Positions 9,043-51,721 of a stretch of DNA of 64,000 bases are shown piece by piece. The DNA is taken from positions 1 to 64,000 of the forward strand of contig NZ_JANUCS010000004.1 of the NCBI RefSeq assembly GCF_024808815.1, read 5' to 3'. The position numbers and the translations under genes were made by a program. Within the stretch, counting starts at the first letter, position 1. The number at the start of each line of letters is the position of its first letter. This DNA comes from Methanosalsum natronophilum (GTDB lineage Archaea > Halobacteriota > Methanosarcinia > Methanosarcinales > Methanosarcinaceae). Under the pieces are notes generated by a model. The model searched no databases and had not been told where the DNA came from. It saw only the letters and a program-made list of their open reading frames with translations.

Positions 9043-9048
9043 TTAATA

Positions 9049-10167: not shown

Positions 10168-10189
10168 TTATTGATCACCTATTTTCCTT

Positions 10190-10681: not shown

Positions 10682-10712
10682 ATGTTATCACCTCACAAGC
10701 GAATTTAATATT

Positions 10713-12290: not shown

Positions 12291-12304
12291 GCTTTTATAT
12301 TCCT

Positions 12305-26310: not shown

Positions 26311-27156
26311 TTAAATTAAACCAATATCCCGTATCTCATCTTGTGAGAGTGCACGATCATATAATTGAATATCATCTATAAGACCCACAAAATTTCGGCT
26401 ATTAGAGCCGCTTCTATACCCTCCTATAAGTATTGGATCATCTGATCGAACCAAATCACCATTAACGCCCCTTAAACTTATAAGTAGTCCATCAATATAG
26501 ATCAACATATCAGAAGACTCATGGTCATATACACCACTGACCTGGTACCACTGGTTGTTCTCTAGTGTTAGGCCTTCAACAAAGTTATTACTTGTATTTT
26601 TGGTACCTAATGCAAACTCAGCCCGGTTCATATTAGATTCCGGTATGGCCGTTGCATGATGTAAACGGTAAGTTGGTGCATTAATATCATCACTTTTTGT
26701 GATTATACCTGCCCACCTATCTCTTTCTGCAATATCAATTTCCCATTTAACATAAGCAACTATCGTGAAGGATTCTGAAAAATTAAGAGATTCTGTAGGA
26801 TTGTCGATTATCACACGACTACCATCATCACCATTGAATCTAGCAGCTTTCCCAAAAAGACCGGGAACAAACTCAACTTCTCCTTCTCCTACTGGATTAC
26901 CATTATTGTCACCTACAGAATCTTTAAAATCACCATCAAATGACCATCTTGCAACCAATCCACTTTGAGGATTCAGGTCACGATCAGATGAATACAGGAT
27001 ATCCTGGAACCTTTCATAGTGATCGTAAGGCAATGAGATCGATGTAGAAAAAAGTGCGATTGATATAGCTAATATTATCGTTACAGAAGTAATAAGGACA
27101 ATACCTATCGAGGGTGCAACGCCTGAGTTCTCTTTGAAAATTCCAAATATCTTCAT
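26311..27156 (-). CDS. Pilin-like membrane-anchored LamG (concanavalin-fold) protein
   Basis: The N-terminus has a class III-type leader and hydrophobic helix (GVAPSIGIVLITSVTIILAI), as in archaeal type IV pilins. A short linker YDHYERFQDIL precedes a LamG/concanavalin-like domain of ~200 residues (GLVARWSFDGDFKDSVGDNN ... DDIQLYDRALSQDEI). It could be a surface or pilus-borne lectin. The gene at 35862 has the same head design with a related linker (EEHYQRFLDQI) but another binding domain, so the two appear to be a pair. 281 residues; transcribed alone. Confidence 0.8.
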   Translation of the reverse strand: MKIFGIFKENSGVAPSIGIVLITSVTIILAISIALFSTSISLPYDHYERFQDILYSSDRDLNPQSGLVARWSFDGDFKDSVGDNNGNPVGEGEVEFVPGLFGKAARFNGDDGSRVIIDNPTESLNFSESFTIVAYVKWEIDIAERDRWAGIITKSDDINAPTYRLHHATAIPESNMNRAEFALGTKNTSNNFVEGLTLENNQWYQVSGVYDHESSDMLIYIDGLLISLRGVNGDLVRSDDPILIGGYRSGSNSRNFVGLIDDIQLYDRALSQDEIRDIGLI

Positions 27157-28827: not shown

Positions 28828-29237
28828 ACTCATAAGGACATTTTTAATAGAAATGGTTACCTATTTTTAAATAACAATACCGTTCCACAGAGTTTGAAAA
28901 CAATATCATTGCTCAAAATAGATGTTATTCTTGAGATTAATTTATTATATTTAGATGAATGGATAGTTTATTCAACAATTGACTTAAATAAGCCCTATTT
29001 TTCTGATTAGAAATAAGGATCTTTTTTTTAGTAACAGCTCTTAGGTATTGTACCAAAAACTCTCATTTTTACTTCACCTTAATATTTCACATATTGTGGA
29101 TATTGTAATAAAAAGCGATTTAAGATTACTGAAATGAAGAATTCAACTTAACCTGAATTTATTCATCTGAGTTAGAACATTTAGCTCCCTAAAACATTTT
29201 CATAATATTTATATTCTATAAGCATATAAATTTTATT
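28828..29237. other. Intergenic region upstream of the TPR-helicase gene
   Basis: AT-rich region of about 400 bp with no recognisable gene. A TATA-like CATATAAATTTTA at 29223-29235 probably serves the downstream TPR-helicase gene. Confidence 0.4.
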
Positions 29238-29291
29238 TTGGTTATTAAAAAAATATTGTGTAACTTCAAATGGAATTATGGAGTTGGGGTA

Positions 29292-32200
29292 TTGAAGTTA
29301 AACCTTGATTATGATTCTGGGGTAAATGAAAGTGAATACAGATATCAGCAGCAACTAAAAAGTCAATCAACTGATGAAAAAAGTGGTGCTGTGAATTATT
29401 CCAATGAAAAGAAAATACTTCAGAGAATTGAAGATTTATTGACCGCTATCATGGAAAAGAAAACTGATATGCAGTTTGATACTTTTTTTAATCATTTAAA
29501 TGATGAACATGAGAGTTACTATAATTACGGTCTTGGTTTATTTTATTTAAAGCAAAATGACAAGAAGAGATCATTAAAACATTTTTCATTCTCATACGAA
29601 CAGTTCAAAGCTATTGATAAATATGTCAGTGCATCAATTGCATGCTCGAAGAGCATTGAACAAAATCCTAAAAATGGTGAACTCCATAGGAGGATTGCAG
29701 AGATGCATCATAAATATGGTGCTAAGAAAGAAGCACTTGACTCGTATCTTGAAGCTATAGAAATATACAAGGAAAAAAGAGATTGGTCAAAAGTAAAAAA
29801 TCTATGTAATATCGCAGAATCGATTGATCCAAATAATCCTCTAATTAGTGAGATGTATGGGTATGCCTACCAGAACACTGCCGGAAAAAAGGCTGAAGCT
29901 ATAAACTACTATGAAAAAGCAAAGCAGATATATCTTAAATGTGGACAGAAAAAAGAGTCTGAAAGGTGTAACAAAACAATAGATGAGATGATGTCAAGTT
30001 CGCAGGTTCAAGAACTTGATATTCCATATTTCACATCATATAAGAGAGATAATATTAATACAGTAGCTATAAGTGACGGCATACCTGTTGATGAATGGAT
30101 AAACAGTAATCATACCAGTTCAAATGTATTAAAATTAGCCGAATCTGATGATATGCTGTTGGATTATGATATTTATAAAGTGGATAGATCTATATGTCTG
30201 ACCTTGGAAAGGACCAATGGAAGTTATAAACAATCATATTCAAAACTTGAGAATTTTTTCTTAAACCTCTTTTTCGAGATGCTTAGTCTAAGGCAAGAGT
30301 CCTTTAATGATAGTAACAAGGATTTCAAGCATGATGAATACTGTACCGTGAAATCAGAATTTCTTGAGTTTAAGCGAATAATAAATCAGGCGTTAGGTCA
30401 AGCTTACATGGACCAGAACTCTAGCTCTATTGGCACTATCTATACCACACCTGCACTCTCTTTATTGAAGAAACTGCTCAAATCAATTGATCCTGACCTT
30501 AATGAGGTACAGTTGGAATATATTGAACAAGCTAAACACATTGCTGTTCCAGGGAGTGCCTTATTTTTCTTAGAACTGTTCACTCAACTAAAAAGAAAGG
30601 ATATTATTTTAAAGCTACAGAGGTACACCAATGATTATGGTTATGATGAGATATCAGGTTTGATTGATATACCCTTACTCCTTCTCAAGCCATGGGACCA
30701 TCAGTTTGAAGCTTTCAAAGCATGGAAGAACAATCGATCAACAGGAATAGTTGAAATGGCTACTGCAACTGGTAAGACTGTAGTAGGGTTCATGGCAATA
30801 GAACACTTAGTGAACACAAACCAAACTAATAGAAAAATAATTGTCCGGATAATAGCAAGTTCTACAGCTATACTGAACCAATGGAGACGTGAACTCATAG
30901 AGAAGATGGGACTAATGGCAGACCCGAAATTAGATTACAATTCCAGTATAATCTGCAAAGGTGCTCATATTTATTTCCAAACAGTTCATATTGTTATGAA
31001 AAGACCTGAGAGTTATGGTTGTGATCTTTTGATAGTGGATGAAGTACACCATTTTGCTGCGGAATCTTTCAGAAACGCTTTAAAGGTCCCTACACCAAGG
31101 AAAATGGGTCTTTCAGCTACAATTGAAGGTAAAACTAAACTAGATTATCTGGTTAAATATCTGGGCCCCATAATTTACAGGTTTGATCTCGAAAGTGCAA
31201 TTCGAGCTGATATACTCCCCAAGTTCGAGTGGAAATTGAATGTGGTATACCTTTCAGTAACAGAAGAAGAGGAATTCGAACAAATCTCAAAAAAGATATT
31301 ATTATTATTCAACCATGTTTCAACGGATTATGCTACTATCAGGAAAATAAGTAAATCTGAGGTCACTATCACTAATTTATATCATTTTGTAAGATTAACT
31401 GAAATTGCTAGATATAAGAAAATAGGATTGCCAGATGAATGGAAGGCACTACAGGCTAAATTACAGGAAAGAAGGTGGATCATCCATAGGTCACAACCTA
31501 AGATCAACAAGGCAATTGAACTTGCTTCTTATTATCTGGAACTAAAAAAGAAAATCATCCTTTTTGTCATGGACATTAATACTTGTGATCTGGTGGCCAG
31601 TGAACTAGAAAAGAAATACTCGAATGTTTATGTAGCTCATTCCAAAATGAAGGATGCTAATAGAAGCATACTAGAGTTCAAAAGGTCAGCATCTGGGATA
31701 CTCATTGGTGCTAAGATGCTTGATGAAGGTATTGATATACCCGATGCAGAGATTGGGATAAATGTATCCTCTACTGAATCCAAACTACAGCTTGTGCAGA
31801 GGCTAGGCAGAGTATTAAGGAAAAAAGATAATAAAAATCCGATATTCCATCATTTCATAGGATTACCTTCAACTGGTTCTTATGTGAATTATGAGGATAA
31901 TATCAAGTTTATGGAAGAACTCTCTAATATCCAAGATATCGCTCTTCATTTAGGTGTTGAGACGGAGATGAATTACGAGACTGACCAGCTCCTGGATGTT
32001 CATAACAGTGCAGAAACAATGGTTCATGAAAATAATTTTGGTGAGAAGGTAGGTACTTTATATTTAGGCAATATTCTAAAACAATTTAATGAAAAAGTAG
32101 TTCATGAAACTATACTGAGACGGTTAGAACTTCTTGATCCAAATAAAAAGATATCAGATGAGAAGTGGAGACAAATCGTTCGAGAAGCGTTTGGAATCAA

Positions 32201-32300
32201 AGATGAACTGTATTTGAACGTGCCGGGGTACTGGTGGATACTTGTCATTGGAGATAGGAACGCTAAAAAGATATCACAGTTGTTAAAAAGTAAGTGTTAG
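29292..32300 (+). CDS. TPR-containing SF2 (DEAD/DEAH, ResIII-like) helicase
   Basis: The N-terminal half has TPR-like helix pairs (YGLGLFYLKQNDKKRSLKHF, EIYKEKRDWSKVKNLCNIAE, EAINYYEKAKQIYLKCGQ). An unassigned middle leads to an SF2 core: DHQFEAFKAWKNN, Walker A ATATGKT, VDEVHHFAAE, GLSATIEG, GAKMLDEGIDIPDAEIGINV and QRLGRVLRKKD. I choose TTG at 29292, with GGAG 8 nt upstream and the TATA box at 29223; the upstream TTG (29238) would precede the expected transcript start. About 1002 residues. It faces mcrBC, so a DNA-targeting defence role is plausible but unproven. It ends in TAG, with another TAG six codons on and a TGA further. Confidence 0.75.
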   Translation: MKLNLDYDSGVNESEYRYQQQLKSQSTDEKSGAVNYSNEKKILQRIEDLLTAIMEKKTDMQFDTFFNHLNDEHESYYNYGLGLFYLKQNDKKRSLKHFSFSYEQFKAIDKYVSASIACSKSIEQNPKNGELHRRIAEMHHKYGAKKEALDSYLEAIEIYKEKRDWSKVKNLCNIAESIDPNNPLISEMYGYAYQNTAGKKAEAINYYEKAKQIYLKCGQKKESERCNKTIDEMMSSSQVQELDIPYFTSYKRDNINTVAISDGIPVDEWINSNHTSSNVLKLAESDDMLLDYDIYKVDRSICLTLERTNGSYKQSYSKLENFFLNLFFEMLSLRQESFNDSNKDFKHDEYCTVKSEFLEFKRIINQALGQAYMDQNSSSIGTIYTTPALSLLKKLLKSIDPDLNEVQLEYIEQAKHIAVPGSALFFLELFTQLKRKDIILKLQRYTNDYGYDEISGLIDIPLLLLKPWDHQFEAFKAWKNNRSTGIVEMATATGKTVVGFMAIEHLVNTNQTNRKIIVRIIASSTAILNQWRRELIEKMGLMADPKLDYNSSIICKGAHIYFQTVHIVMKRPESYGCDLLIVDEVHHFAAESFRNALKVPTPRKMGLSATIEGKTKLDYLVKYLGPIIYRFDLESAIRADILPKFEWKLNVVYLSVTEEEEFEQISKKILLLFNHVSTDYATIRKISKSEVTITNLYHFVRLTEIARYKKIGLPDEWKALQAKLQERRWIIHRSQPKINKAIELASYYLELKKKIILFVMDINTCDLVASELEKKYSNVYVAHSKMKDANRSILEFKRSASGILIGAKMLDEGIDIPDAEIGINVSSTESKLQLVQRLGRVLRKKDNKNPIFHHFIGLPSTGSYVNYEDNIKFMEELSNIQDIALHLGVETEMNYETDQLLDVHNSAETMVHENNFGEKVGTLYLGNILKQFNEKVVHETILRRLELLDPNKKISDEKWRQIVREAFGIKDELYLNVPGYWWILVIGDRNAKKISQLLKSKC

Positions 32301-32392
32301 TTGATGAAGAATAGTTAGAACCAACAATCGATTTGATTGGTATTTGGAATAGGTGATTTCTTGCTCGTTACCAAACAAGTAACTCCAAAAAT

Positions 32393-33445
32393 TTAGTTAT
32401 TATCAATCACTTCAGGAAAAAACGATTTGATCAATGAATGGAGTTGTGTTTCAATATTTGTAAAATCCGTGTTCAGATCAATTGTTTTAACACTTATCCT
32501 GTTTCCACCTAACATATAATCATTATCAGGTGTTATGTCTTCATCGGTTTTAGCATAAAGTAGTACTCCACTTACATTTCCCGAACCCAGACTATCCTTA
32601 TTCTTCACATAAGTATATATTTGATACAGGTTGGATGAATGATGTCTACGCGTATTATACATACTATGGACCTGCATAGTGTTCGAATAATATTTAGTAT
32701 CGATTATCAATATTTTGTCATTATACTCTACCATAATATCCGATCTCATTGCAGGTAGGAGTTCGACTATACCATCATCAGTATCCCACTCAATATTTGA
32801 AGCGGTAACAGAGAGCTTTGAGTAATGTTTACGGTAATATTCACGTACAAACTTCTCAAACAATCTATGCATTGCTTGATCATCTATGTAATGTTGTGAT
32901 TCTAATTCACCACTCTTTTCACTCATGATCATTGTTTTTATCACAAGAAAACAAATATTTATCAACATCCTATATGTGGAATTATTGCGATGATAAGTTA
33001 GACCTGACCACCGGATCCTATACGGATCAAGTTCATCAACGTCGTTGAAATAGATGAGTACTTTTTTTAATAGATATTTTCTTGATGAATCTACGTCATT
33101 AGACCTTAATAACAAGTGAGTTGTGGTCTTTAGTATTTGGTTCATGTACGTATTCTTGGTGAACTCATCGAATTCACAGACTAGTTTCTTTTTAACCAAT
33201 GTCTGAGCTTTAATGGATCCTGTAACATCGATCCTTCCTATAGGCACACCACGCTCTTCTGACCTAGATATATACTCTCGTCCTAATCCACGTCGAACCT
33301 GATTGAATATACCTTTACCTAATATTGCAGCAAGTAGGTCATTTGAGTTATGGAACTCTTCTGCTGCTACTTGTGCATAACTATCTTGATTTAGTACCTG
33401 GAACGCGTAAGAAAGCATATAATAGATGTTTTGGACCTTTATCAT
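32393..33445 (-). CDS. mcrC: 5-methylcytosine restriction component McrC (nuclease subunit)
   Basis: The 350-residue protein begins VQNIYYMLSYAFQVLNQ and has the McrC core AMRSDIMVEYNDKILIIDTKYY, a PD-(D/E)xK site with the DTK triad, followed by SSNLYQIYTYVKN. McrC joins the McrB ring and cuts DNA. Its ATG overlaps the McrB stop by 4 nt (ATGA), so the two genes are translationally coupled. Length is typical. Confidence 0.92.
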   Translation of the reverse strand: MIKVQNIYYMLSYAFQVLNQDSYAQVAAEEFHNSNDLLAAILGKGIFNQVRRGLGREYISRSEERGVPIGRIDVTGSIKAQTLVKKKLVCEFDEFTKNTYMNQILKTTTHLLLRSNDVDSSRKYLLKKVLIYFNDVDELDPYRIRWSGLTYHRNNSTYRMLINICFLVIKTMIMSEKSGELESQHYIDDQAMHRLFEKFVREYYRKHYSKLSVTASNIEWDTDDGIVELLPAMRSDIMVEYNDKILIIDTKYYSNTMQVHSMYNTRRHHSSNLYQIYTYVKNKDSLGSGNVSGVLLYAKTDEDITPDNDYMLGGNRISVKTIDLNTDFTNIETQLHSLIKSFFPEVIDNN

Positions 33446-35553
33446 CTAATACTTCCAAAAAGCTTGTTCTTCCACTGTTCAACTTTATTTTTCTCATCAA
33501 ACCAGTATTCTTCGAGTAATGGCACAATCTCATATTCAATTATGGATCTTAGGACCGAATCAGTAACATTCCCTTCCAAACAAAAGAAACTATGTCCTAT
33601 CCTAAACCCTTCACCCAACGATTCATCCTGGGCAATAAATTCATTCAATAATTTCACTTGCTCTATTAATTTCCTAAAATTGGGATTATTCGAATTTCTT
33701 ACAATCGTTTCAAATCCATCAGAATCAAATGCGGGATGTAAATCAAAGAATGCAAACCTTCTCCTTAATGCATAATCTATTATAGCTAAACTTCGATCAG
33801 CAGTGTTCATGAGACCAATTATGTGAACATTGGGTGGTACTGAAAAGAGTTCATCGGAATAGATTATACGCAACTGTTGACCACGTTTATCATTCTCGAT
33901 CAACATCATCAATTCACCAAATATCTTGCTAAGATTACCGCGGTTAAGCTCATCTATAATGAAAAAATAATCGTTATTCTGGTCATCCTCTTGAGCTCTT
34001 TTACAAAATTCATAGAATGGACCATGATTTAACTCGAACCCAGTTTCTGTGGGTCTATACCCCATAATAAAATCTTCATAACTGTAACTCTGATGAAACT
34101 GGACCATCATGACCCGATTAGTATCCTGTTCTCCCATGATAGAGTATGCGAGCCTTTTAGCAACAAATGTCTTACCCACCCCAGGTGCACCTTGCAAAAT
34201 AATATTCTTTTTATTTTTCACGAGATTTATGAGGGAATGATACGTACTAGAATTCATGAAAACTTCGCCAAGAAAATCTTCTTCAGTATACTTTGGATAA
34301 ATGTAATCTTTTTCTTCGAATTCTTCTTCCTCCTCCTCTTCAAAGAACAATTTTTCCAATTTCTTATAATATGAAGTATAAGGTGTAATGTCTGTAAGCA
34401 TTTTAGTTACAGCGTTCCCAGGATGGGGCCATTCTCCTTTATGTGTCCATTTAACTTTACGAATGTTCTTATATTCGTCATTTCTACCAGGATCAAAAAT
34501 ATATTCTGATTCAACTATACCTCTTCCAATTACCTTAGATTGACCTTTTTTTGCATAAATAATATCTCCAGGTTTCATTTCGTTAGTAAATTGCCAGGTT
34601 GCATGTGCAGCATCCCTATAAGTATAATCTTCACCGTAAAGCTCTTTCATTTTAGCTTTCATGGCAGATTTTGAAGGATATTGCCTTAAATCTTCCAATT
34701 CACCTCTTCTGATACCCATAATCCCATTTTGGTAAAACTCACCCCATTTTTTAGCTTGTATACCAGGAGAATATATCCAGTACTTGATCTCGGGTGAAGG
34801 ATCAGGTTCGATTGAACTACTATTACTTCCACTAGGGTTTTTTTGTGACCATGCAGCATAAGATAGTTCAGGAAAACTTTTGATTGAAGAATCTTCATGT
34901 TCAAAAAAGGATTTACACTTATCTATTAGTTTCAGATATTCTTCTGCACTTGGAATTCGAAGATCTGATAGTTCTTCAATTTCTTCACCAAAGGAGTTAC
35001 TATTTTCTCTTAAATAATCTCGGTTAGTTCTATCAAGGTTAAGGTAAGAATAAGGTCTAATCCAGTACAGGCCCATAGTAATGTTCCATTTAATGCCAGC
35101 CTGTTCTTTTACAATATTGAATATGTGCTTGAACTCATTACGGTTAGACTCAGTTGGATTATCAGCATACTTTATTGCAATATCGAACAATTCCCATAAA
35201 TTGTTGATTAGATCTAATATATTTTCTGAGTTACCCGAATAGAACCAGGTTCTCATGTTGTTCAGTAAAGGTACACCTTCAAGGTCAGTTGGTGGTTCGG
35301 CTTCTACTCTCAATTTATTTCCAATTCCCTTCATAAGATTTATTCGATTCTCATCGGTCAAACCTCTATTAAAGCAACCAAAGACCGTGAACGGTCCAAT
35401 GTCATTGAAAGGATCATCATTTTGGATGAAATTGTATTGGAAACCTAATTTATCATATTCCTCTTTTAATATGTTTAGTAGGTCATCTCTGTTATTTTTG
35501 TACAACAAAAGCTTATCAGCAAATTCTATAAAGAATCGTGTCCATGTGAACAT
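33442..35553 (-). CDS. mcrB: 5-methylcytosine restriction GTPase McrB with EVE-like specificity domain
   Basis: The C-terminal AAA+ GTPase has Walker A GAPGVGKT, Walker B FFIIDELNRGNLSKIFGELM and the GTP-specificity motif MNTADRS followed by RRRFAFFDLHP. In front, around residues 255-400, an EVE/ASCH-like domain (KYWIYSPGIQAKKWGEF ... HATWQFTNEMKPGDIIY) is the probable modified-base reader; an acidic Glu run (EEEEEEEFEEKDY) links the two. The first ~200 residues are an unassigned helical region (FTWTRFFIEFADKLLLY ... GIKWNITMGLYWIRPYSYLN). At 703 residues it is normal for an archaeal McrB. Target modification cannot be told from sequence. Confidence 0.9.
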   Translation of the reverse strand: MFTWTRFFIEFADKLLLYKNNRDDLLNILKEEYDKLGFQYNFIQNDDPFNDIGPFTVFGCFNRGLTDENRINLMKGIGNKLRVEAEPPTDLEGVPLLNNMRTWFYSGNSENILDLINNLWELFDIAIKYADNPTESNRNEFKHIFNIVKEQAGIKWNITMGLYWIRPYSYLNLDRTNRDYLRENSNSFGEEIEELSDLRIPSAEEYLKLIDKCKSFFEHEDSSIKSFPELSYAAWSQKNPSGSNSSSIEPDPSPEIKYWIYSPGIQAKKWGEFYQNGIMGIRRGELEDLRQYPSKSAMKAKMKELYGEDYTYRDAAHATWQFTNEMKPGDIIYAKKGQSKVIGRGIVESEYIFDPGRNDEYKNIRKVKWTHKGEWPHPGNAVTKMLTDITPYTSYYKKLEKLFFEEEEEEEFEEKDYIYPKYTEEDFLGEVFMNSSTYHSLINLVKNKKNIILQGAPGVGKTFVAKRLAYSIMGEQDTNRVMMVQFHQSYSYEDFIMGYRPTETGFELNHGPFYEFCKRAQEDDQNNDYFFIIDELNRGNLSKIFGELMMLIENDKRGQQLRIIYSDELFSVPPNVHIIGLMNTADRSLAIIDYALRRRFAFFDLHPAFDSDGFETIVRNSNNPNFRKLIEQVKLLNEFIAQDESLGEGFRIGHSFFCLEGNVTDSVLRSIIEYEIVPLLEEYWFDEKNKVEQWKNKLFGSIR

Positions 35554-35861: not shown

Positions 35862-36503
35862 ATGGTTGTTAGATGTCAGTTAAAAGACTCATTATCAGGC
35901 ACAACCCCGGTAATTGGGATACTATTTTTAGCAGTTATAGTTATAGGATTATCTTTTGTTGTAGTAAATGCATTAATGTCGATAGATACACCTGAGGAGC
36001 ATTACCAGCGTTTCCTTGACCAGATCCATAACTTAGAGTCCGAAAATGACGTTCAAGATACAGTTGTTGAAAATCTTTTTTCGAATTCGGCTTTTGATGA
36101 CTGGGAAGCTAGTGTTGAATGGGGATCTAGTGCCAAACTGACAAATAAGTCTGAAAATGGCAATAGTGTGATTCAAGATAACTCTTCCTCAGGAGGATAT
36201 TTAAGACAAAAATTTTATGATTTCGATTCGGATAAAGATTATCGTGTCTCTTTTTATGCAAAAAAAGAAGGAACTATAAATGATGTTAATACTAGAGCAC
36301 TACTTTATGAAGATGGGAATAATTTTACAGTAGCTTACTCTGACAATTTCACAAGTGAATTAACAGATGAATGGCAACTTTTTGAATATGAAATAACGTA
36401 CATTCCTGAAGATACTGAATATATTAGAGTTGAGATATATAGAGGATTAGAAGTTGAAGAAGGATATATCTTTGTACATAGCCCAAAACTCAAAGAAATT
36501 TAA
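35862..36503 (+). CDS. Pilin-like membrane-anchored protein with a beta-sandwich (carbohydrate-binding-like) domain
   Basis: The head SLSGTTPVIGILFLAVIVIG is a type IV pilin-like leader and helix, followed by the linker HYQRFLDQIHN, close to that of the LamG protein at 26311-27156. Residues ~70-213 form a CenC-like carbohydrate-binding module: NLFSNSAFDDWEASVEWG, FDSDKDYRVSFYAKKEG, DEWQLFEYEITYIPEDTEYI and the VEIYRG strand. It would be displayed on the cell surface. The gene lies between mcrBC and hgcB and is transcribed alone. Confidence 0.75.
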   Translation: MVVRCQLKDSLSGTTPVIGILFLAVIVIGLSFVVVNALMSIDTPEEHYQRFLDQIHNLESENDVQDTVVENLFSNSAFDDWEASVEWGSSAKLTNKSENGNSVIQDNSSSGGYLRQKFYDFDSDKDYRVSFYAKKEGTINDVNTRALLYEDGNNFTVAYSDNFTSELTDEWQLFEYEITYIPEDTEYIRVEIYRGLEVEEGYIFVHSPKLKEI

Positions 36504-36634: not shown

Positions 36635-36934
36635 TCAGCAGCATGATTTACCATCATCATCACATCCACATTCACCACTATCCATTTCTTTTCCTTTTAG
36701 TGCTGCACGTATCATTGCCCATGCACATCCAACACCAGCTTCAACTTTAATAGCTTCATTTGGACAATTCTGAGCACATGCTCCACATTCTATACATGAT
36801 GTAGGGTTTGTGAGTTTAACATGATCATTTCCTTCAGTAAAGACATTGTGTGGACAAACCTGAATACATCGATGACAATTGATACAGTTTTCTGGATAAT
36901 ATTCAAGTGTGTTTTCAAGATATGAGTTAAACAT
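36635..36934 (-). CDS. hgcB: Mercury methylation ferredoxin HgcB
   Basis: The 99-residue protein has two [4Fe-4S] motifs (Cys17/20/23/27 in CINCHRCIQVC and Cys47/50/53/57 in CIECGACAQNC). The conserved extra Cys70 in GVGCAWA and the terminal Cys pair CC are the features that separate HgcB from ordinary ferredoxins. HgcB reduces the corrinoid protein HgcA for transfer of a methyl group to Hg(II). Its ATG overlaps the hgcA TAA by one base (TAATG), after a strong GGAGGTGAT ribosome site, so it is cotranscribed. I see no ArsR-type regulator nearby. Confidence 0.96.
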   Translation of the reverse strand: MFNSYLENTLEYYPENCINCHRCIQVCPHNVFTEGNDHVKLTNPTSCIECGACAQNCPNEAIKVEAGVGCAWAMIRAALKGKEMDSGECGCDDDGKSCC

Positions 36935-38004
36935 TAGATCACCTCCAAAAAACTAAGTGTTCCTAGTAGAAGTAAAAGTATTATTCCAGCTCCACCCATG
37001 AAAGCTAGTATTGGGATGTATCTGTATATCTCTTTTTTTACTCCTGACTTTGATGTTAATGGAGTAGCACCAGTAAAATTGAGTGTAATATATGCAGTTA
37101 CTGAAGGTATGATCAAAAGCGGTATTATTGATCCAAGGATACTTGCACCTGGTGAAGTATTAGGGTCAGTCAGGTATAAGATTGAAAATGGAATTGCAAC
37201 TATTATACCAAGAATGAATCCTTTTGTAGTAAAATCTGATGTTGGTATGAAAGGAAGTAAGGTAGGAAATAAAACAGTTCCTGCAAGTACTGTTGTGATC
37301 ACTGCAAGAGATGCAAGTGGACCTGCAAAAAAATAAAGGATGAGTGTAAGAACAATTGTTGGTAATAATAGATGAGATAGTTCAATTGGTATAAGGATCA
37401 ATCTATCTTTTAATGGAAATTTGACTTTACGCATTTCTGGTGTTGTTTTACGCTCATTTAGATATTCTGGTAGATCACTAGCCTTTATGGGTCCATATTC
37501 TACCTTGAAGCCAGAACGGTTAAATACCTCATGTGCTGAAATACCGGGTGCACCAAGCTGTGGCACTATTAATCTGCGATGTTCTACTCTTTTAGTAAGT
37601 TCTGCTAGTCTTATACGTTTCACAAGTTCATCAGTACCAAACGTACCCTTACCAGCAGCACACCATACATTGATTCCTTTTGTGTCCAGGACAAGAATAT
37701 AACAGTCAATATGTTGAAGTGAATCACGAACAGAATCAAAACTCAATTTGTAATTAGCTGAAACGATAATATCTGAGGTTTTATCAGGATCACCAAGTTT
37801 GTAGAGTCCCGGTTTTACAACATGATTCATACGATCAATTCCCATTCTAGCTAGAAAATGATCAAACCTATCTCTGAACTCGAGTTTACCAGTTGTACTA
37901 AATATATCCGAACTTGGATAACTGTGCGAGAAATTCATTAAAGGGAATGCTTGAAACTTAGTATCGCATGAACAAAACTTGCTGTTATCCTTGTTATTAT
38001 CCAT
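36934..38004 (-). CDS. hgcA: Mercury methylation corrinoid protein HgcA
   Basis: The cap-helix signature NVWCAAGK is present at 112-119, with Cys115 as the lower ligand of the corrinoid cobalt. Upstream, VLDTKGINVW belongs to the corrinoid-binding CFeSP-gamma-like fold. The C-terminal half has five membrane helices (for example LLPTIVLTLILYFFAG and the last AFMGGAGIILLLLLGTLSF), as in all HgcA. 356 residues, typical length. Together with HgcB it converts inorganic Hg(II) to methylmercury, as known in bacteria and methanogens such as Methanolobus. Physiological purpose and regulation are not visible here. Confidence 0.97.
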   Translation of the reverse strand: MDNNKDNSKFCSCDTKFQAFPLMNFSHSYPSSDIFSTTGKLEFRDRFDHFLARMGIDRMNHVVKPGLYKLGDPDKTSDIIVSANYKLSFDSVRDSLQHIDCYILVLDTKGINVWCAAGKGTFGTDELVKRIRLAELTKRVEHRRLIVPQLGAPGISAHEVFNRSGFKVEYGPIKASDLPEYLNERKTTPEMRKVKFPLKDRLILIPIELSHLLLPTIVLTLILYFFAGPLASLAVITTVLAGTVLFPTLLPFIPTSDFTTKGFILGIIVAIPFSILYLTDPNTSPGASILGSIIPLLIIPSVTAYITLNFTGATPLTSKSGVKKEIYRYIPILAFMGGAGIILLLLLGTLSFLEVI

Positions 38005-38242
38005 TCAAGAAATACCTCGGTTCCAAATACTATTTATTCATAATAAATACCTTTTTGTGTTGACATTTTTTTGACCTTGTAAAAAACATTTTATGTCCTA
38101 ATAATGCGGTTTGTGCAAGTCTATCTCAAAATAAATCAAATATAGTTCTAAATTTTTAAATACATTGAATGAAAAAATTTTAATGACAAAATTGTTCATT
38201 GACAAATGTTTTTATTCTTAAAAGATGATTATATAATAAGGA

Positions 38243-41200
38243 ATGAAAAAAAGCAAGCAAAAACGGCTCTTAATTAAAATAAGTTTATTTTTAATTTTAA
38301 CTTTATTGTTCAGTTTTAGTACCGTGTCATATGGTAGTGAAGATGTTAGCGTAGATGACGAAGATACGATTATTCTTCATAACCAGATAATCCATACTAC
38401 TGATGATGGACCACAAGTATTTCATTCAGAACCCCTAGCAATGGACCAAGACGAGGATAAGGATATTGATGCCTTCAAATACTATATAGTACAATTCAAG
38501 GGCCCAATCCATTCTGAATATAAATCCAAGGTTGAGGCACAGGGTGCACAAGTCCATGGATATCTTCCAAATAATGCTTTTATTATTGGAATGAACGAGT
38601 CTGTTAAACAGAAGATTGAAGGTAAGGACATAATTAATTGGATTGGAGAATATTTACCTGAATATAAAATATCTTCAGAACTGTTGTACTATACCAGTTC
38701 TAATAATGATGAAAATGAATTGATAGTTGATATTACAGTTTTCGATTCAAAAACAATCTCTGAAACTGTAGATGAATTAAATGAACTTGGAGTTACAGTA
38801 CTCAGTTACAATGGATACAAAATAAGAGCCATTCCTTCTAATATTAACTTATTGAACATTGCTGATATTGATAATGTGGAATGGATAGAAAAAAAGCATG
38901 AACTTATACTGTTTAATGACGTAGCTGCAAATATTTCAAAGATCGATATTGTCAGGTCTAATTTTAACTTGACAGGTGAAGGTCAGATTGTAGCAGTTGC
39001 AGATACTGGCCTTGATACCGGAAATATTGAGAATTTGCATGCCGATTTCTTTGGAAGGGTCATTGGACTCACTACTGTTAAAGCTGAATCAGTTGCAGAC
39101 GATCCTGCATTAGGTCATGGTACTCATGTAGCTGGTACAGTTTTGGGTGATGGTAATCTTTCTGATGGTAAGTATCAGGGAATGGCACCGGGCTCTAAAC
39201 TTTTCTTCCAGGCAATTGGAGATGAATATGGTGATATAACTGTCCCTTTTTATTTGTATTCTTTATTTGAGGAACCTTATGGTGAGGGTGCACGAATACA
39301 TAGTAATAGTTGGGGTTTTCTTAATACTAAAGGAATTTATACTAGCCACTCCAAACAAGTTGATGAATTTATGTGGGACCACCCTGAGATGCTTATTGTG
39401 TTCTCAGCAGGGAATAAAGGACCTGGGCCCCAAACTATAGGCGCTCCGGGTACTGCTAAGAATGTGCTCACAGTTGGTGCATCCCAAAGTTCTAAGAATT
39501 CAGGTGACCCTTCCTCACTCGCGTCTTTTAGTAGCCGTGGACCTATTGTAGATGGTAGGATAAAACCTGATATTGTTGCACCAGGTACTTCTATATTATC
39601 AACAAGGTCAAGTGTAGCTCAAAGTGATATGTGGGGTTCATATGAAAACTCGAATTATACTTATGCAGGTGGTACTAGTATGTCTGCACCGGTAGTAGCA
39701 GGTTCTGCAGCTATTACAAGACAATATTACAATGATACATTAGATCATTCAAATCCAAGTGCTGCACTTATCAAGGCTACTCTTATCAATGGAGCTTATA
39801 CATTACCTGAATACGATAGGTATGAACAGGGCTGGGGTCGGCTTGACCTGCACACCTCATTATCAGATTTTGAATACTTTGATAGTTATTCGAACTCTGT
39901 TAATTTGAGTACAGGTGATTCATGGAATGTGACGTATACTATACCAGATAAAACACATTTCCTAAATGCGACCTTGGTATGGACAGATTATCCACGGACA
40001 GATTCCGCGGGTAAGGATTTGGTCAATGACCTTGACCTAAAATTAGTATGTCCCCAAGGAAACACTTACTTGGGAAATGATTTCGATAATTCTGGGAATA
40101 TTGATACTGTTAATAATGTTGAACAGGTTATCTTTGAACCTTGTGTTGGTGGTAGTTATAAGATCTATGTTAATGCAAGCAATGTTCCTGAAGGTCCTCA
40201 GAACTTTGCTTTAGTGATGAGTGCGAAAGAAAGGGAAAAACCTTCGGTTGTTATGGATTATTCTCCTGATAGACCAGTGAACTCTTCAGAGGAATTAAAC
40301 ATTACAGCAAACTTTGATCATTATATGGAATCACCAGTGAACATCACTATTGAACTTGATGATTATTTAGATGTCAACAACCAGACAATGAGTGGTAGTG
40401 GGAATACATGGCATTATGATTATAAGGTTAATTCGACATTCAATGGTACAGCTAATGTATCCATAGCTGGTCAAGATAATTTTGGTCTTAAGAATAAACC
40501 TGCTATAAATGCTCAGTTCATAATAGATTCTGAACAGCCTAAGATTGAATTGAATGCACCCTTAGTAGAGAACATAAAAGGGCCAGGTATCATTTTCGAG
40601 TTTAATGTAACTGATAATCTTGATGAGGATGTAGAATGGATATTGTTCATTAACGAGACCAAACATCTCACAGGTACCGGAACTGGTGATATTCAGAAAG
40701 GTGTGACTGACCTGGATACAGGGAACTATGAATGGAATGTGGTTGTAGTGGATCATGCTAAGAACAGGAATGTAAGCAATTCTCACCACTTCTATTTTGA
40801 GAAAGATCCTTTAACATGTTCATTTACAGTAAATAAGACAAGAGGTATTGCTCCACTAACAGTTGAATTCAATGATACCTCAAATCATTCAATAGCTAAT
40901 GAATGGGATTTTGATGACGGTACGATCTTGAAGAATGAAACTAAGTTAAATCACACATTCACAAAACCAGGAAAATATCAAGTAAAACTCACAGTCTTTG
41001 ATGCATTCAATAACATAGAACAAAAATCTCTGTACATACATGCAGAATACGGGTCAGCTAAAAAACTTTCAAGCATATCACCAAATCAATCTTATACCAA
41101 TACTAGTATGTTTAAAGGATCACCCGATTCTAAACGCTTGATCGAGAGTACAGGCATTGATGGTTTTGGATATAAGTTCAGGTCAAGTGAAAATAAAACA

Positions 41201-42313
41201 ATACAAGTAAATATCACAACACTTATCTCGACAACAACTGAGCTTGAAAATGATATTTCTGAGTTGGGTGCAGGTGTATTACCAAACTTTTACTATAATA
41301 TCAGTGTTGATGATAATGAGTGGTATGATAATGTATCAAATGTTGAACTGATTGTATATTATAATAGTACAAAGACTGGTAATCTGGATATTGATGAGAG
41401 TACACTGAAATTGTATAGGTACACAAACAATACCTGGACTGAATTGGATCACACTAAAATAACTCAACTAGACGATGATCTTGGAACTGTACTATATTCA
41501 TCCGGTATAAACACGTCAGGTTCTTACGTTTGGGCTAATCTCAGTCATTTCTCAACTTATGGTATAAAAGGTGAACTAAAACCAGAAGATGAAGATGATG
41601 AAGATGATAATGGCTCTCAAGATACATCCACAGGGGGTAGTAGTGGTGGTGGTGGTGGTGGCGGTGCTGGTAGTTCACGAGAACATTATGAGAATATTGA
41701 TCTTGTTGAGGTTATCTCTAGGTCAATAACCTCCGGGGTACCTGCAGAATATACATTCGGGGAAGCCAGATTACCCTTAACTAAAATAAGATTTGATCCG
41801 TTACAGAACTTAGGATCACTTGAGGTCAGGGTAGAAATGTTACATGAGCGTTCACAGTTTGTTGATAGCGATCCTGAAGGAACTGTTTATAAATATTTGA
41901 ATGTATGGATTAATAGGCCAGGTTTTACTCAAGGTCAACATTTTGAGAATGCATTATTAGAGTTTAGAGTACCTAACACGTGGTTAGATGAACATGGTAT
42001 TCATGAAAATGAAGTAAATATGTATCGATTTGTTAATGGTGAGTGGCAAGTTCTACCTACAAACGTTGAGAGTTCTGATAATGATTGGCATTATTATATT
42101 TCTGAAACGCCAGGATTCTCACAGTTTGCAATAACTGGTATTCAGCCAGAACAGATCAGTGATGATGATAAATTAGATGATATTGATGCTAAGCATGACA
42201 CAATAGATGAAGAAAATGAACAAGTTGAAGAAGAAATACCAGGATTTGGTTTGATAGTAGCTATACTTATATTGTTCATAACAGCTTTATTAATAAAAAA
42301 GGGTAGATTATAA
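38243..42313 (+). CDS. Cell-surface subtilisin-like serine protease (S8) with PKD and PGF-pre-PGF domains
   Basis: A signal peptide (ISLFLILTLLFSFSTVSYG) precedes an inhibitor-like propeptide and an S8 catalytic domain with Asp254 (VADTGLDTG), His292 (GHGTHVAG) and Ser479 (GGTSMSAPVVAG); SNSWG carries the oxyanion Asn. After it come a P-domain-like beta sandwich, Ig-like modules, a PKD domain (GIAPLTVEFNDT ... EWDFDDG), a Gly-rich hinge (GGSSGGGGGGG), a PGF-pre-PGF domain (SETPGFSQFAITG) and the C-terminal EIPGFGLIVAILILFITALL anchor. 1356 residues. It is a secreted, archaeosortase-processed protease, probably for peptide turnover or envelope maturation. No partner gene is linked. Confidence 0.92.
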   Translation: MKKSKQKRLLIKISLFLILTLLFSFSTVSYGSEDVSVDDEDTIILHNQIIHTTDDGPQVFHSEPLAMDQDEDKDIDAFKYYIVQFKGPIHSEYKSKVEAQGAQVHGYLPNNAFIIGMNESVKQKIEGKDIINWIGEYLPEYKISSELLYYTSSNNDENELIVDITVFDSKTISETVDELNELGVTVLSYNGYKIRAIPSNINLLNIADIDNVEWIEKKHELILFNDVAANISKIDIVRSNFNLTGEGQIVAVADTGLDTGNIENLHADFFGRVIGLTTVKAESVADDPALGHGTHVAGTVLGDGNLSDGKYQGMAPGSKLFFQAIGDEYGDITVPFYLYSLFEEPYGEGARIHSNSWGFLNTKGIYTSHSKQVDEFMWDHPEMLIVFSAGNKGPGPQTIGAPGTAKNVLTVGASQSSKNSGDPSSLASFSSRGPIVDGRIKPDIVAPGTSILSTRSSVAQSDMWGSYENSNYTYAGGTSMSAPVVAGSAAITRQYYNDTLDHSNPSAALIKATLINGAYTLPEYDRYEQGWGRLDLHTSLSDFEYFDSYSNSVNLSTGDSWNVTYTIPDKTHFLNATLVWTDYPRTDSAGKDLVNDLDLKLVCPQGNTYLGNDFDNSGNIDTVNNVEQVIFEPCVGGSYKIYVNASNVPEGPQNFALVMSAKEREKPSVVMDYSPDRPVNSSEELNITANFDHYMESPVNITIELDDYLDVNNQTMSGSGNTWHYDYKVNSTFNGTANVSIAGQDNFGLKNKPAINAQFIIDSEQPKIELNAPLVENIKGPGIIFEFNVTDNLDEDVEWILFINETKHLTGTGTGDIQKGVTDLDTGNYEWNVVVVDHAKNRNVSNSHHFYFEKDPLTCSFTVNKTRGIAPLTVEFNDTSNHSIANEWDFDDGTILKNETKLNHTFTKPGKYQVKLTVFDAFNNIEQKSLYIHAEYGSAKKLSSISPNQSYTNTSMFKGSPDSKRLIESTGIDGFGYKFRSSENKTIQVNITTLISTTTELENDISELGAGVLPNFYYNISVDDNEWYDNVSNVELIVYYNSTKTGNLDIDESTLKLYRYTNNTWTELDHTKITQLDDDLGTVLYSSGINTSGSYVWANLSHFSTYGIKGELKPEDEDDEDDNGSQDTSTGGSSGGGGGGGAGSSREHYENIDLVEVISRSITSGVPAEYTFGEARLPLTKIRFDPLQNLGSLEVRVEMLHERSQFVDSDPEGTVYKYLNVWINRPGFTQGQHFENALLEFRVPNTWLDEHGIHENEVNMYRFVNGEWQVLPTNVESSDNDWHYYISETPGFSQFAITGIQPEQISDDDKLDDIDAKHDTIDEENEQVEEEIPGFGLIVAILILFITALLIKKGRL

Positions 42314-42406: not shown

Positions 42407-44383
42407 TTAGGTTGGAATTAGTATTTTATAACAAGTACCGTGAGATGTATCGATATCAATTTTCCCTGATAATTGGGTTACTAACAGATCAATTATCTTA
42501 AATCCAAGTGAATCAAGAGTTTCAATATCAAGATTAGCTGGTATTCCGGGCCCATTATCTCTCACGATCAATTGATAGTTATCATTTATTGTTTTAAACT
42601 TAACTGTAAGTTTACAATCATCTCTGCCAGTAAAAGCATGTTTAAATGAATTTGTCACTATTTCATTGATAATAAGACCAAGTGGAATTGTATAGTCCAT
42701 GTTCAAATAGATCTCATCAGAATCAAGGTTTAGTTCAATATCCTTTTCTTCGTTGTTATAATGTCTTAGTACCGAATTAACTATATCATGTATATATTTT
42801 GATATCTCAACACTTGCAAGGTCTTGTGCACCATATAATTGTTCATGAGCTATTGACATAGAACGTATCCGTGTCTGACTGTCTTTGAATGCATTGAGCA
42901 CTCGCTCATCATCAAATGATCTGGCTTGCATGTTAAGTAGACTATTGATCACCTGTAAATTATTCTTAACACGGTGATGAACCTCTTGAACAATCAAATG
43001 TTTCTTTTCTAACTCTCGCACTTTATTCTCAAATTCAATTGACTTTATTTGTTCAGTAATATCTCGGGCAAGTACCATCATGTAAGGTTCATTATCAATC
43101 TTGATTTTCCGTACATTTATTTCAACTGGAAACGTATTTCCTGAAGCTGTACGATGTGTTGATGTGAATGTTTGCAACTTCCCATATTCCCACGTATTCC
43201 ACATGGAAACTACTTCTTCGAAACTAAAATTTGCATCAATATCCATCACATTCATTTGTAACAATTCGTCTTTAGAATATCCCGTATTTTCAACAGATGC
43301 ACGATTTACCTCAATAAAATTACCTGACATGTCATGTAAATATAACATTTCAACGGACTGTTCAACTAAAGAACGGTACTTATTCTCTCGTTTCTGTAAT
43401 CTTTTCTCATATTCTTTTTGAGCAGTTACGTCAATATGTGTCCCAAGAACGATTTTATTTTCATTGAGATCATTATTGTTATTGTCGATATTTGCCACAT
43501 TATCAATAGCACTTCCACGTGACCATACCCAGACAGTTGATCCGTTCTTATGTTTCATCCTGAAATAATTTTCATATATTCCAACCATGCCTCCATCAAT
43601 AAACTCCTGAAATTTAGATGAAGCTTCTGCACGGTCTTCTGGATGAATAAGGTTTATCCAAGTTTGATTTAAATTATTTTCAGTAAAATGACTAAATTCA
43701 TTGATATCGTATCCTAACATGGAAAAATATTCGGGACTACAAAGAAGATACTCATTTTCTGGATAATAATGCCAGACACCAGTATTAGAGATAGTGGATA
43801 GAATACGAAATCGTTCATTTTCTTCTTTGATCCTATTGTGCATCATTTTAGTTTCAGTAATATCGCTGGCAATACCTATAAAGTAAGAAACATTCTTTTT
43901 GTCATCATAATAGGCTGAACCCGTTGAAGTATGCCAATACCAATTCCCGTCCTTATGTTGTACTCGATATTCGGGCTTAGGTTCAGATTTTTTACCATCA
44001 GCTATCTCTTTTAAATATTCAAAACAAACAGGTACATCTTCAGTATGAACAAATTCAGCGAATGGATGACCAATGACTTCATCGGTTTCATGTCCCAATA
44101 ACTGGGTCCACTGTGGAGAAACGTACGTGAAAATGCCAGTAGGAGATAATGTATATATGATATCACTAGATTCTTCTACTAATATACGATATATATGTTC
44201 ACTTTCTTTCAAGTCTCTATATTCTTTTTCTCCTTCATAGTTTGATATGAATTCGGATAAAGCTAGGTTTAAAATAGTAGATAGTGAACTAAACTTACCT
44301 TGTGAAACCATATCATCGATTTTTTTCTTGAGATATGGATCGACATTAGAGGTCATGACAGGTTCATTGTTCTCATTTGACAT
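42407..44383 (-). CDS. PAS-domain histidine kinase with ribbon-helix-helix-like N-terminus
   Basis: The N-terminal 50 residues (VDPYLKKKIDDMVSQGKFSS, then LSTILNLALSEFISNY) resemble a ribbon-helix-helix DNA-binding domain. Three PAS/PAC units follow (around 65-180, 185-320 and 330-450). A HisKA_2-type dimerisation helix carries the phospho-acceptor His in QEVHHRVKNNLQVINSLLNM, and the HATPase has NEIVTNSFKHAF and DNGPGIP. 658 residues, no membrane helix, so it is cytosolic. No response regulator is adjacent. If the RHH part binds DNA, signal sensing could act directly on transcription. It is divergent from the unknown gene at 44497. Confidence 0.85.
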   Translation of the reverse strand: MSNENNEPVMTSNVDPYLKKKIDDMVSQGKFSSLSTILNLALSEFISNYEGEKEYRDLKESEHIYRILVEESSDIIYTLSPTGIFTYVSPQWTQLLGHETDEVIGHPFAEFVHTEDVPVCFEYLKEIADGKKSEPKPEYRVQHKDGNWYWHTSTGSAYYDDKKNVSYFIGIASDITETKMMHNRIKEENERFRILSTISNTGVWHYYPENEYLLCSPEYFSMLGYDINEFSHFTENNLNQTWINLIHPEDRAEASSKFQEFIDGGMVGIYENYFRMKHKNGSTVWVWSRGSAIDNVANIDNNNNDLNENKIVLGTHIDVTAQKEYEKRLQKRENKYRSLVEQSVEMLYLHDMSGNFIEVNRASVENTGYSKDELLQMNVMDIDANFSFEEVVSMWNTWEYGKLQTFTSTHRTASGNTFPVEINVRKIKIDNEPYMMVLARDITEQIKSIEFENKVRELEKKHLIVQEVHHRVKNNLQVINSLLNMQARSFDDERVLNAFKDSQTRIRSMSIAHEQLYGAQDLASVEISKYIHDIVNSVLRHYNNEEKDIELNLDSDEIYLNMDYTIPLGLIINEIVTNSFKHAFTGRDDCKLTVKFKTINDNYQLIVRDNGPGIPANLDIETLDSLGFKIIDLLVTQLSGKIDIDTSHGTCYKILIPT

Positions 44384-48321: not shown

Positions 48322-49593
48322 ATGGGAAAATATTCAGTTGCTTTTCTTGCTTGCAATAGAACTCAAAACAAGTACGATCAAATCTGTGAGTGTAACCCTA
48401 ATTCGTTACTTCGAACCTTTTATGAGAATGATAAGATATTTGTGAAAGACTTGCCTGGGATGTGGAGGTATTATGATTGGCTTCCAGTTGAAGGTATAAT
48501 TGATGAATGTAAAGGTAGGACGATAAGCTATAAAAGTGAAAAATTAGCGTCTTATCTCGGTCTTTCGAGGTTATGGATTGCTTTTAATGGATACTGGCCT
48601 GAAAGAGATGCATATATGATGACATCTACTTTTAAAGACCTGGAATCTTTTCCTACAATGCAACGAGTGAAGGAACAAAATAATGATGATATTATGGTAG
48701 TTGCTTCTGCAGGTAATACTGCTCGTGCTTTTGCTCATGTTTGCTCATTAACGGGTCAACCACTTTTATTGGTCGTACCTGAAAAAAGTGTACATAGGTT
48801 ATGGACCATAAATGAATCAACAGATTCTATATTCCTTCTGTCTGTGGATGGTGATTACACGGATGCTATTACCTTAGCTAACAAGATCGCTGAAATGGAT
48901 GGGTTCATTAACGAAGGTGGAGCTAAAAACGTTGCTAGACGTGACGGTATGGGTACTGTGATGTTGGATGCAGTAATGGAGAGCGGGGAGTTACCTGAGC
49001 ATTATTTTCAGGCTGTAGGTAGTGGTACTGGTGGTATTGCTGTATGGGAAGCATCAATGAGATTGATTGGAGATGGTAGGTTTGGTGATAAGTTACCTAA
49101 ATTACATTTAGCACAGAACATGCCATGTGCACCTCTGTATAAGCTATGGAGTGGTAATGGGGATATTACTTCAACTTGTCCTAATGAAATGTATGATGAT
49201 GTTCTTTTTAATAGAAAACCTCCATTTGATATTACAGGGGGAGTTAGGGATGCACTTGAGTCAACAAATGGTCTGATATATCCTATCGAGAACTATCAGG
49301 CACAAAAAGGTCAACATCTCTTTGAAGAATTGGAAGGTATTGATATTAATCCTGCATCTGCTGTTGCTGTAGCTTCATTGATACAAGCTGTGAAATTGGG
49401 TCATGTGGGTTCAGATGAAACTATTCTATTAAACATAACTGGTGGGGGAAAAGAACGATTGAAACGTGATATGAATTTGAGGCCATTAGAAGTATCTCAC
49501 TCGATCTCAGTAGGTGAGGAGGACATTGAAATGAAGATTATAGATAAAGTATCAGAAGTATTGAGACTTAAAAGACAACAAGGTGAACTTTGA
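48322..49593 (+). CDS. Cysteate synthase (PLP-dependent, ThrC paralogue)
   Basis: The 423-residue protein is a threonine-synthase-like PLP enzyme. The cofactor lysine lies in MMTSTFKDLESFPT, the pyridoxal-phosphate loop in GSGTGGIAVWEASM, and VVASAGNTARAFAHVCSL is the substrate Asn/Gly region. The N-terminal pair YSVAFLACNRTQNKYDQICE differs from true threonine synthase and fits cysteate synthase, which makes L-cysteate from phosphoserine and sulfite in Methanosarcinales and Methanomicrobiales. Cysteate is then converted to sulfopyruvate. comD and comE downstream in the same operon support this call. Its TGA overlaps the next ATG (TGATG). Confidence 0.9.
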   Translation: MGKYSVAFLACNRTQNKYDQICECNPNSLLRTFYENDKIFVKDLPGMWRYYDWLPVEGIIDECKGRTISYKSEKLASYLGLSRLWIAFNGYWPERDAYMMTSTFKDLESFPTMQRVKEQNNDDIMVVASAGNTARAFAHVCSLTGQPLLLVVPEKSVHRLWTINESTDSIFLLSVDGDYTDAITLANKIAEMDGFINEGGAKNVARRDGMGTVMLDAVMESGELPEHYFQAVGSGTGGIAVWEASMRLIGDGRFGDKLPKLHLAQNMPCAPLYKLWSGNGDITSTCPNEMYDDVLFNRKPPFDITGGVRDALESTNGLIYPIENYQAQKGQHLFEELEGIDINPASAVAVASLIQAVKLGHVGSDETILLNITGGGKERLKRDMNLRPLEVSHSISVGEEDIEMKIIDKVSEVLRLKRQQGEL

Positions 49594-50363
49594 TGACAAT
49601 AAACCCGATATCCAGTCTTACTATAATGGGTGGGGTAGATAAAGACGGGAAAGATGAACCTGTTAGGTATGTAGAAATTGTTGCTGGAGAGATTGTAGGT
49701 ATAGTAGGTCCAACAGGTTCAGGAAAAAGTACATTGATCGATGATATTGAACAACTTGCACAAGCTGATACTCCAACTGGAAGAACTATTCTGCTCAATG
49801 GCCAAAGACCGGATGAAAGTATACGCGCGGATCCTCGAAGAAAACTTGTGGCACAGTTATCTCAAAAGATGCATTTTCTTGCTGACATGACCGTTGAAGA
49901 GTTTCTGTGTATGCATGCAAGGAGTAGGGGTAAAGATGAGTCTTTATTTTCAAAGATAGTTGAGCTTGGTAATACACTTACAGGAGAACCAATATATCCT
50001 AAAGACCATTTAACTTCACTTAGTGGTGGTCAATCACGTGCACTTATGACAGCAGATATTGCTGTGATCAGCGACTCTCCAGTGGTCTTAATTGATGAAG
50101 TGGAAAACGCAGGGATAAAAAAGCAGGAAGCTTTGAAATTACTTGCGGGGGAAGGTAAAATAGTTGTTGTTGTCACTCATGATCCTGTACTTGCACTCAT
50201 GTCTTCACGCAGGATTGTTATCAGAAATGGAGCAATGGTAAATCTCATTGATACAAGTCATCAAGAACAGGAAATATGCACTAAGATAACCAATGTGGAT
50301 AATTGGATGTTATCTTTGCGTGAAACTATTAGGCGTGGCGATATCGTGGAGGATAAGATATGA
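49593..50363 (+). CDS. Soluble ABC-type ATPase in the coenzyme M operon
   Basis: The 256-residue ATPase has Walker A GPTGSGKS, an LSGGQ signature, Walker B VVLIDEVENAG and H-loop VVVVTHDP. No membrane segments and no permease gene are present, so it is not a transporter. It resembles methanogen ATPases that handle metals or macromolecular assembly, but I do not recognise a named family. ATG at 49593 overlaps the cysteate synthase TGA, and its own stop overlaps the next ATG. The three-gene cluster within the coenzyme M operon suggests a job in making or installing a cofactor. Confidence 0.8.
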   Translation: MTINPISSLTIMGGVDKDGKDEPVRYVEIVAGEIVGIVGPTGSGKSTLIDDIEQLAQADTPTGRTILLNGQRPDESIRADPRRKLVAQLSQKMHFLADMTVEEFLCMHARSRGKDESLFSKIVELGNTLTGEPIYPKDHLTSLSGGQSRALMTADIAVISDSPVVLIDEVENAGIKKQEALKLLAGEGKIVVVVTHDPVLALMSSRRIVIRNGAMVNLIDTSHQEQEICTKITNVDNWMLSLRETIRRGDIVEDKI

Positions 50364-51058
50364 AACTTGTGGTCCTTGCCGGTACTCCAGGAGCAGGAAA
50401 AACATCTGTTTTATTGCATACAATTAAGTCCCTTATTAGTGATGACAAAAAGCCTGCTGTGGTCAAGGTCGATTGTCTGTGGACAGATGATGACCGTAGA
50501 TTCAAAAAATTTGATATTCCAGTACACGTTGGCCTTGCTAAAGATATGTGCCCAGATCACTTTACGATCTATAATACTGAAGAAATGATGAATTGGGCGG
50601 ATGAAAAGGGAGCTGATATTCTATTAAATGAAACTGCCGGATTGTGTCTAAGATGTGCACCGTATCCTGACAGTTGTCTTGCTATATGTGTTATTGATGT
50701 TACCACTGGTCCAAATACACCTCTTAAAGTGGGACCACTTCTGACAACCGCTGATATTGTGGTAATGACAAAATCCGATCTTGTTTCACAGGCAGAAAGG
50801 GAGGTTTTTAGAGAAAGAGTGCTGGAAGTAAATCCTGGGTGCAAGATAGTAGAGGCTAACGGGCTAACCGGGAAAGGATCTTTTGAGCTTGCAGATATTA
50901 TCTCTAAATGGCCAGATGTGGGTGATGATATGGTTTTAAGGTATAGTCCGCCTCTAGCTATTTGTTCTCTATGTACAGGTGAGAACAGAGTAGCACGAAA
51001 ACATCATATGGGTGTTTTGAGGAACTTGGATGGGTTCATGGAGTATAAAGGTGAATAA
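50360..51058 (+). CDS. P-loop GTPase (HypB/CooC/UreG-like) with cysteine motifs
   Basis: The 232-residue protein has a P-loop GTPGAGKTSV and the G4-like TKSDLV. Three cysteine pairs stand out: KDMCPDHFT, LCLRCAPYPDSCLA and ICSLCTGENRVARKHHMG. These resemble nickel and metal-insertion GTPases rather than signalling GTPases. It overlaps the ABC ATPase by 4 nt (ATGA). With that ATPase and the following Fe-S protein it may form a metallocofactor maturation unit. The substrate is unknown; coenzyme M synthesis itself has no step that obviously needs such a unit. Confidence 0.75.
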   Translation: MKLVVLAGTPGAGKTSVLLHTIKSLISDDKKPAVVKVDCLWTDDDRRFKKFDIPVHVGLAKDMCPDHFTIYNTEEMMNWADEKGADILLNETAGLCLRCAPYPDSCLAICVIDVTTGPNTPLKVGPLLTTADIVVMTKSDLVSQAEREVFRERVLEVNPGCKIVEANGLTGKGSFELADIISKWPDVGDDMVLRYSPPLAICSLCTGENRVARKHHMGVLRNLDGFMEYKGE

Positions 51059-51081
51059 AATGTATGTGGAGTTAAGTATCA

Positions 51082-51717: not shown

Positions 51718-51721
51718 TTGA

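Follow-up and report, generated by a model that had tools for sequence, protein, structure and literature searches.

We have identified hgcA and hgcB, the known gene pair with which some anaerobic microbes convert mercury to toxic methylmercury, in an intact and ordinary form in a methanogenic archaeon, and this pair very probably constitutes a functional hgcAB operon. The host belongs to what is probably the genus Methanosalsum, whose members are haloalkaliphilic and come from soda lakes. It is likely that mercury is methylated by a haloalkaliphilic, soda-lake Methanosalsum whose fast-evolving hgcAB stands without a regulator gene next to it and is missing in the close relative M. zhilinae. 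If true, archaeal methylation would also include soda-lake methylotrophic methanogens, and a plus/minus hgcAB comparison could be made within one genus.

Background

The presence of hgcAB predicts methylmercury production. The native role of hgcAB is, to our knowledge, settled for no organism, and a congener without the pair is a convenient control for studying it. In the literature searched, we found no report linking Methanosalsum to hgcA and no description of an archaeal methylator from soda lakes. Two hgcAB-positive alkaliphilic bacteria are already on record, namely Geoalkalibacter ferrihydriticus (PMC4357744) and Dethiobacter alkaliphilus, which is included in a methylator set (PMC10349881), so the ecology is plausible and not surprising. 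The gene pair itself is well known, and the modest interest of this case lies in the likely haloalkaliphilic genus and the plus/minus contrast inside it. We consider mildly notable the patchy presence in the genus, the long HgcA branch with conserved residues intact, and the lack of an upstream PrlF/MazE-like regulator.

The hgcAB locus

The window (the whole 64,000-nucleotide stretch of DNA analyzed here) carries hgcA and hgcB as adjacent, unfused genes, the arrangement by which hgcAB methylators are recognized. Both open reading frames occupy exactly the minus-strand span, 36635-38004, given in the initial annotation (Table 1). The one-base gene overlap behind a strong ribosome site that it described is evident in the junction sequence TTTTTTGGAGGTGATCTAATG, in which the hgcA stop TAA and the hgcB ATG have one base in common, and the ribosome site ahead of hgcB is a full, perfect GGAGGTGATC. 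Upstream of hgcA lie a ribosome site, GAGGT, and, at a short distance from the ATG, the A+T-rich sequence TATTTATTATGAATAAATA, which may serve as a TATA-type promoter. No regulator gene is found in the intergenic region upstream of hgcA, and an Rfam search of the window gave no match. Recent foreign origin was rejected on composition, as the G+C content of hgcAB (0.363) compared with that of the window (0.353) gives no such signal.

Table 1 Features of the hgcAB locus and its neighbors, in window coordinates
Feature	Coordinates	Strand	Description
hgcA	36934..38004	minus	Corrinoid protein HgcA, 356 aa; N-terminal corrinoid-binding domain and five C-terminal transmembrane helices
hgcB	36635..36934	minus	99-aa dicluster ferredoxin; two CxxCxxCxxxCP motifs, Cys70, C-terminal Cys98-Cys99
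hgcA/hgcB junction	36932..36952	minus	GGAGGTGATC ribosome site inside hgcA end; TAATG one-base stop/start overlap
Divergent intergenic region upstream of hgcA	38005..38242	minus	238 bases, towards subtilase gene
Unclassified pilin-like protein	35862-36503		Neighbor; no Pfam match
Subtilase	38243-42313		Neighbor
PAS histidine kinase	42407-44383		Neighbor
McrBC-like pair	32393-35553		McrC-like (PF10117) and AAA_5 McrB-like; adjoins hgcAB

Identity of HgcA and HgcB

HgcA scored 427.3 bits against the NCBIfam equivalog NF040863 (cut-off 275) and HgcB scored 114.6 bits against NF040864 (cut-off 99), with family E-values of 3.5e-128 and 1.4e-33, respectively, that exclude a chance match. Pfam matches of the pair were confined to the shared corrinoid domain (PF03599) and to ferredoxin domains. 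The NVWCAAGK cap helix, previously put forward as diagnostic, lies at HgcA residues 112-119, conforms to the motif N(V/I)WCA(A/G)GK and has Cys115 as its cysteine. When aligned with HgcA from archaea and bacteria (93 sequences), the window HgcA keeps all 62 near-invariant positions, NVWCAAGK included, and departs at only three, with conservative changes, of the 98 columns conserved at 90% or more. AlphaFold modeling from a 31-row alignment predicted an N-terminal domain of mixed alpha/beta structure and, after it, five membrane helices (H204-227, H229-252, H258-278, H285-313 and H319-352; 21-34 residues each), which agrees with the five C-terminal membrane helices originally proposed; mean pLDDT was 79, with cap-helix residues 116-119 at low confidence. 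The best PDB match of this model in Foldseek was 9a0b_A (E 1.9e-19), a published HgcAB model that is itself computed, and CFeSP chains came next.

HgcB had been credited with both [4Fe-4S] motifs, GVGCAWA and a terminal Cys pair, all of which are present as C17/C20/C23/C27, C47/C50/C53/C57, C70 (in GVGCAWA) and C98-C99. In an alignment of 102 HgcB sequences, the window protein has lost none of the eight cluster cysteines, nor Cys70 or either Cys of the C-terminal pair. Mutagenesis in strain ND132 has found that the cap-helix Cys and the Cys following the second cluster are essential, as is at least one Cys of the C-terminal pair (PMC7305189). Every residue published as needed for mercury methylation is present in the window pair, as are all of the HgcB cysteines whose loss abolishes or strongly lowers activity in ND132 (PMC7305189).

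Phylogeny and rate of change

A position outside the HgcAB clade, such as one with CFeSP, had been named as a refutation of the annotation; when this test was run, the window HgcA fell within the HgcA clade. It groups within the HgcA clade of the Methanosarcinaceae (support 100/96), alongside Methanomethylovorans and Methanolobus, while the genome's own CFeSP and the fused HgcAB-like proteins are on separate, very long branches well apart from it. The same clade includes a genome (G068) that we take to be M. hollandica. Because HgcA lies in a single Methanosarcinaceae clade, its source is the family itself, by inheritance or exchange, and not bacteria; its descent may have been vertical with losses or by transfer within the family. 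The Methanomethylovorans and Methanolobus groups contain confirmed methylators, in which methylation was measured (PMC5893877).

The end branch of HgcA is long, at 0.66 changes per column versus a median of 0.2, or about three times. Identity to close kin is 53-60%, compared with mostly 60-74% among those kin themselves, and identity to Methanomethylovorans is 57-59% versus 69-72% for the Methanolobus-like sequences closest to the window HgcA. The CFeSP gamma subunit of the host is not comparably fast (71% identity to a Methanomethylovorans-like genome versus 73% for the congener), and thus HgcA itself has changed faster, though not at near-invariant positions. These branch lengths and identities, together with the hardly faster CFeSP and the absence of an adjoining regulator, would fit a pair that descends from true hgcAB yet is silent, or does not act on mercury, in this host, with the long branch reflecting relaxed constraint or a substrate shift in the native reaction. 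We regard this as improbable, since relaxed constraint is expected to strike near-invariant and conserved positions, yet none of the former is altered and the latter show only the conservative changes described above; moreover, all conserved HgcB cysteines are intact, neither reading frame is interrupted, and the ribosome site is perfect. Confusion of HgcA with a CFeSP-type or fused, non-methylating HgcAB-like corrinoid protein has a negligible probability and is ruled out by curated cut-offs and the tree: the corrinoid domain does match PF03599 and CFeSP structures, but the window HgcA reaches, against its 427 bits for HgcA, only 205.7 bits with the fused HgcAB-like model NF043039 (cut-off 285) and 73 bits with the CFeSP gamma subunit (CdhE) model (cut-off 306), has a membrane domain and the cap-helix Cys, is encoded separately from HgcB and is split from both groups in the tree, and the actual CFeSP-type subunits of the genome are encoded on a different contig.

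Host and distribution

The claim that the pair sits in a methanogen is upheld by genes for cysteate synthase, both sulfopyruvate decarboxylase subunits and methanogenesis marker 16 on the same contig, which identify the host as such. The host assembly is 98.9% complete with 0.3% contamination. Within the genus, HgcA above cut-off occurs in the host genome only. The only near-complete congener, a single contig of 2,138,444 bases that we take to be Methanosalsum zhilinae DSM 4017, is without HgcA above cut-off; the absence of HgcA above cut-off from the third genome of the genus says little because that genome is 72% complete. CFeSP identity between the host and the complete congener is 82%, and hence the host is a different species, possibly M. 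natronophilum. Across the family, HgcA above cut-off was found in 25 of 112 genomes. In one genome of the Methanolobus-like genus (L112; G053:C47), hgcA is in pieces with in-frame stops, which suggests gene decay in that lineage or an assembly error. A search of the host genome for MerB found no match, and the control search likewise matched nowhere.

Genomic neighborhood

None of the neighboring genes explains the pair, as first noted, but the label of pilin-like lectin given to the gene next to hgcB did not stand, as that gene matches no Pfam family; the Laminin_G_3 (lectin) and Pilin_N matches belong to another gene, at 26311-27156. The McrC-like and McrB-like genes are probably a restriction system. 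Matches to the complete congener on both flanks of hgcAB are scattered over the congener's chromosome, which places hgcAB in a variable region and leaves an empty site in the congener not definable. A helicase gene at 29238-32300 (window 29006-32329), which PADLOC classes as PbeA-like, shares 91% DNA identity with the complete congener; most other congener matches around this region are at 65-84%, so the helicase is likely common to both by recent transfer. At 3711-15064, the window also contains a type I-E CRISPR array (61-bp period; repeat CGGTTCATCCCCACGTGTGTGGGGAACTC) together with the adjacent genes cas1e, cas6e, cas5e, cas7e, cas8e and cas3.

A MazE/AbrB-fold gene at hgcA has been described by Zhang et al. 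(PMC10349881). Among 103 related loci, which include some genomes counted twice, such a PrlF/MazE-like gene is directly upstream of hgcA in 52 and absent from 45, including the window locus, and six contigs are too short to tell. Neither a PrlF/MazE-like nor an ArsR gene adjoins the window hgcAB. A conserved operon partner was also sought and rejected, as the hgcAB loci of relatives are not flanked by counterparts of the nearest window genes. A coenzyme M biosynthesis cluster at 48322-54064 encodes cysteate synthase, sulfopyruvate decarboxylase alpha and beta, and methanogenesis marker 16, along with a HypB-like GTPase and an ABC ATPase. The ABC-ATPase/HypB-like pair at 49590-51058 has 47% identity to a pair adjoining hgcA in Methanolobus, but lies 11 kb from hgcAB inside this cluster, and the resemblance was treated as paralogy and not as linkage. 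In the Methanolobus vulcani group (L013:2070-5053, also L012 and L016), DUF1858/solute-binding, CobW/HypB-like GTPase and ABC-ATPase-like genes precede hgcA in place of the MazE-like gene and are possible metal-handling partners.

Proposed function

Gene structure, family membership, intact catalytic residues, fold, phylogeny and host type were established directly. From established knowledge of the pair, both as to the reaction and as to the strain's performing it, we strongly infer that the strain would form methylmercury. HgcA would bind a corrinoid whose lower cobalt ligand is Cys115 (Cys-on), and HgcB would supply low-potential electrons to yield Co(I). Methylation of Co(I), presumably by SAM as in the purified HgcAB complex, would give methyl-Co(III), from which the methyl group would pass to thiol-bound Hg(II), with HgcB Cys70 and the terminal Cys98-Cys99 predicted to handle Hg(II)/CH3Hg+. 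According to published work, the HgcA cobalamin has a Cys-Co bond and SAM is the methyl donor in the purified complex (PMC11588087); HgcB is the two-cluster ferredoxin partner of HgcA, and Hg(II) receives the methyl group (PMC11588087, PMC7305189). Of nine hgcAB-positive methanogens in culture, eight made methylmercury; Methanococcoides methylutens, whose pair is fused, did not (PMC5893877). The window pair groups with the unfused pairs.

Comparison with known HgcAB systems

The closest counterparts are the HgcA and HgcB of other Methanosarcinaceae (Methanomethylovorans, Methanolobus and some Methanosarcina), which are confirmed or presumed methylators. Gene order, adjacency, NVWCAAGK, five transmembrane helices, two [4Fe-4S] motifs, GVGCAWA and the C-terminal Cys pair are alike, and identity to most of them is 53-60% for HgcA and about 66-73% for HgcB. 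The window HgcA differs in its longer branch, and the window HgcB stops right after the Cys pair, a point beyond which the tail continues in several relatives. An upstream PrlF/MazE-like gene occurs in Methanosarcina, Methanomethylovorans and one Methanolobus group, while the window and the M. vulcani group are without it. The biochemically and genetically characterized HgcAB of Pseudodesulfovibrio mercurii ND132, compared via published residues, is similar in its cap-helix Cys (Cys93 there), in the counterparts of its HgcB Cys73/94/95 and in its five transmembrane helices (PMC7305189, PMC11588087); the window host differs in being archaeal and in having no ArsR gene beside the pair. Fused HgcAB-like proteins (Methanococcoides methylutens, Pyrococcus), which yielded no methylmercury in tests (PMC5893877), have a related corrinoid domain with about 31-33% identity to two Methanosarcinaceae members, but are single chains, whereas the window pair comprises two genes and its HgcA falls below the NF043039 cut-off. 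The CFeSP large (gamma) subunit CdhE shares a homologous corrinoid-binding fold, but lacks the HgcA-type membrane domain and the cap-helix Cys motif, and has its own gene on contig C14 of the host genome.
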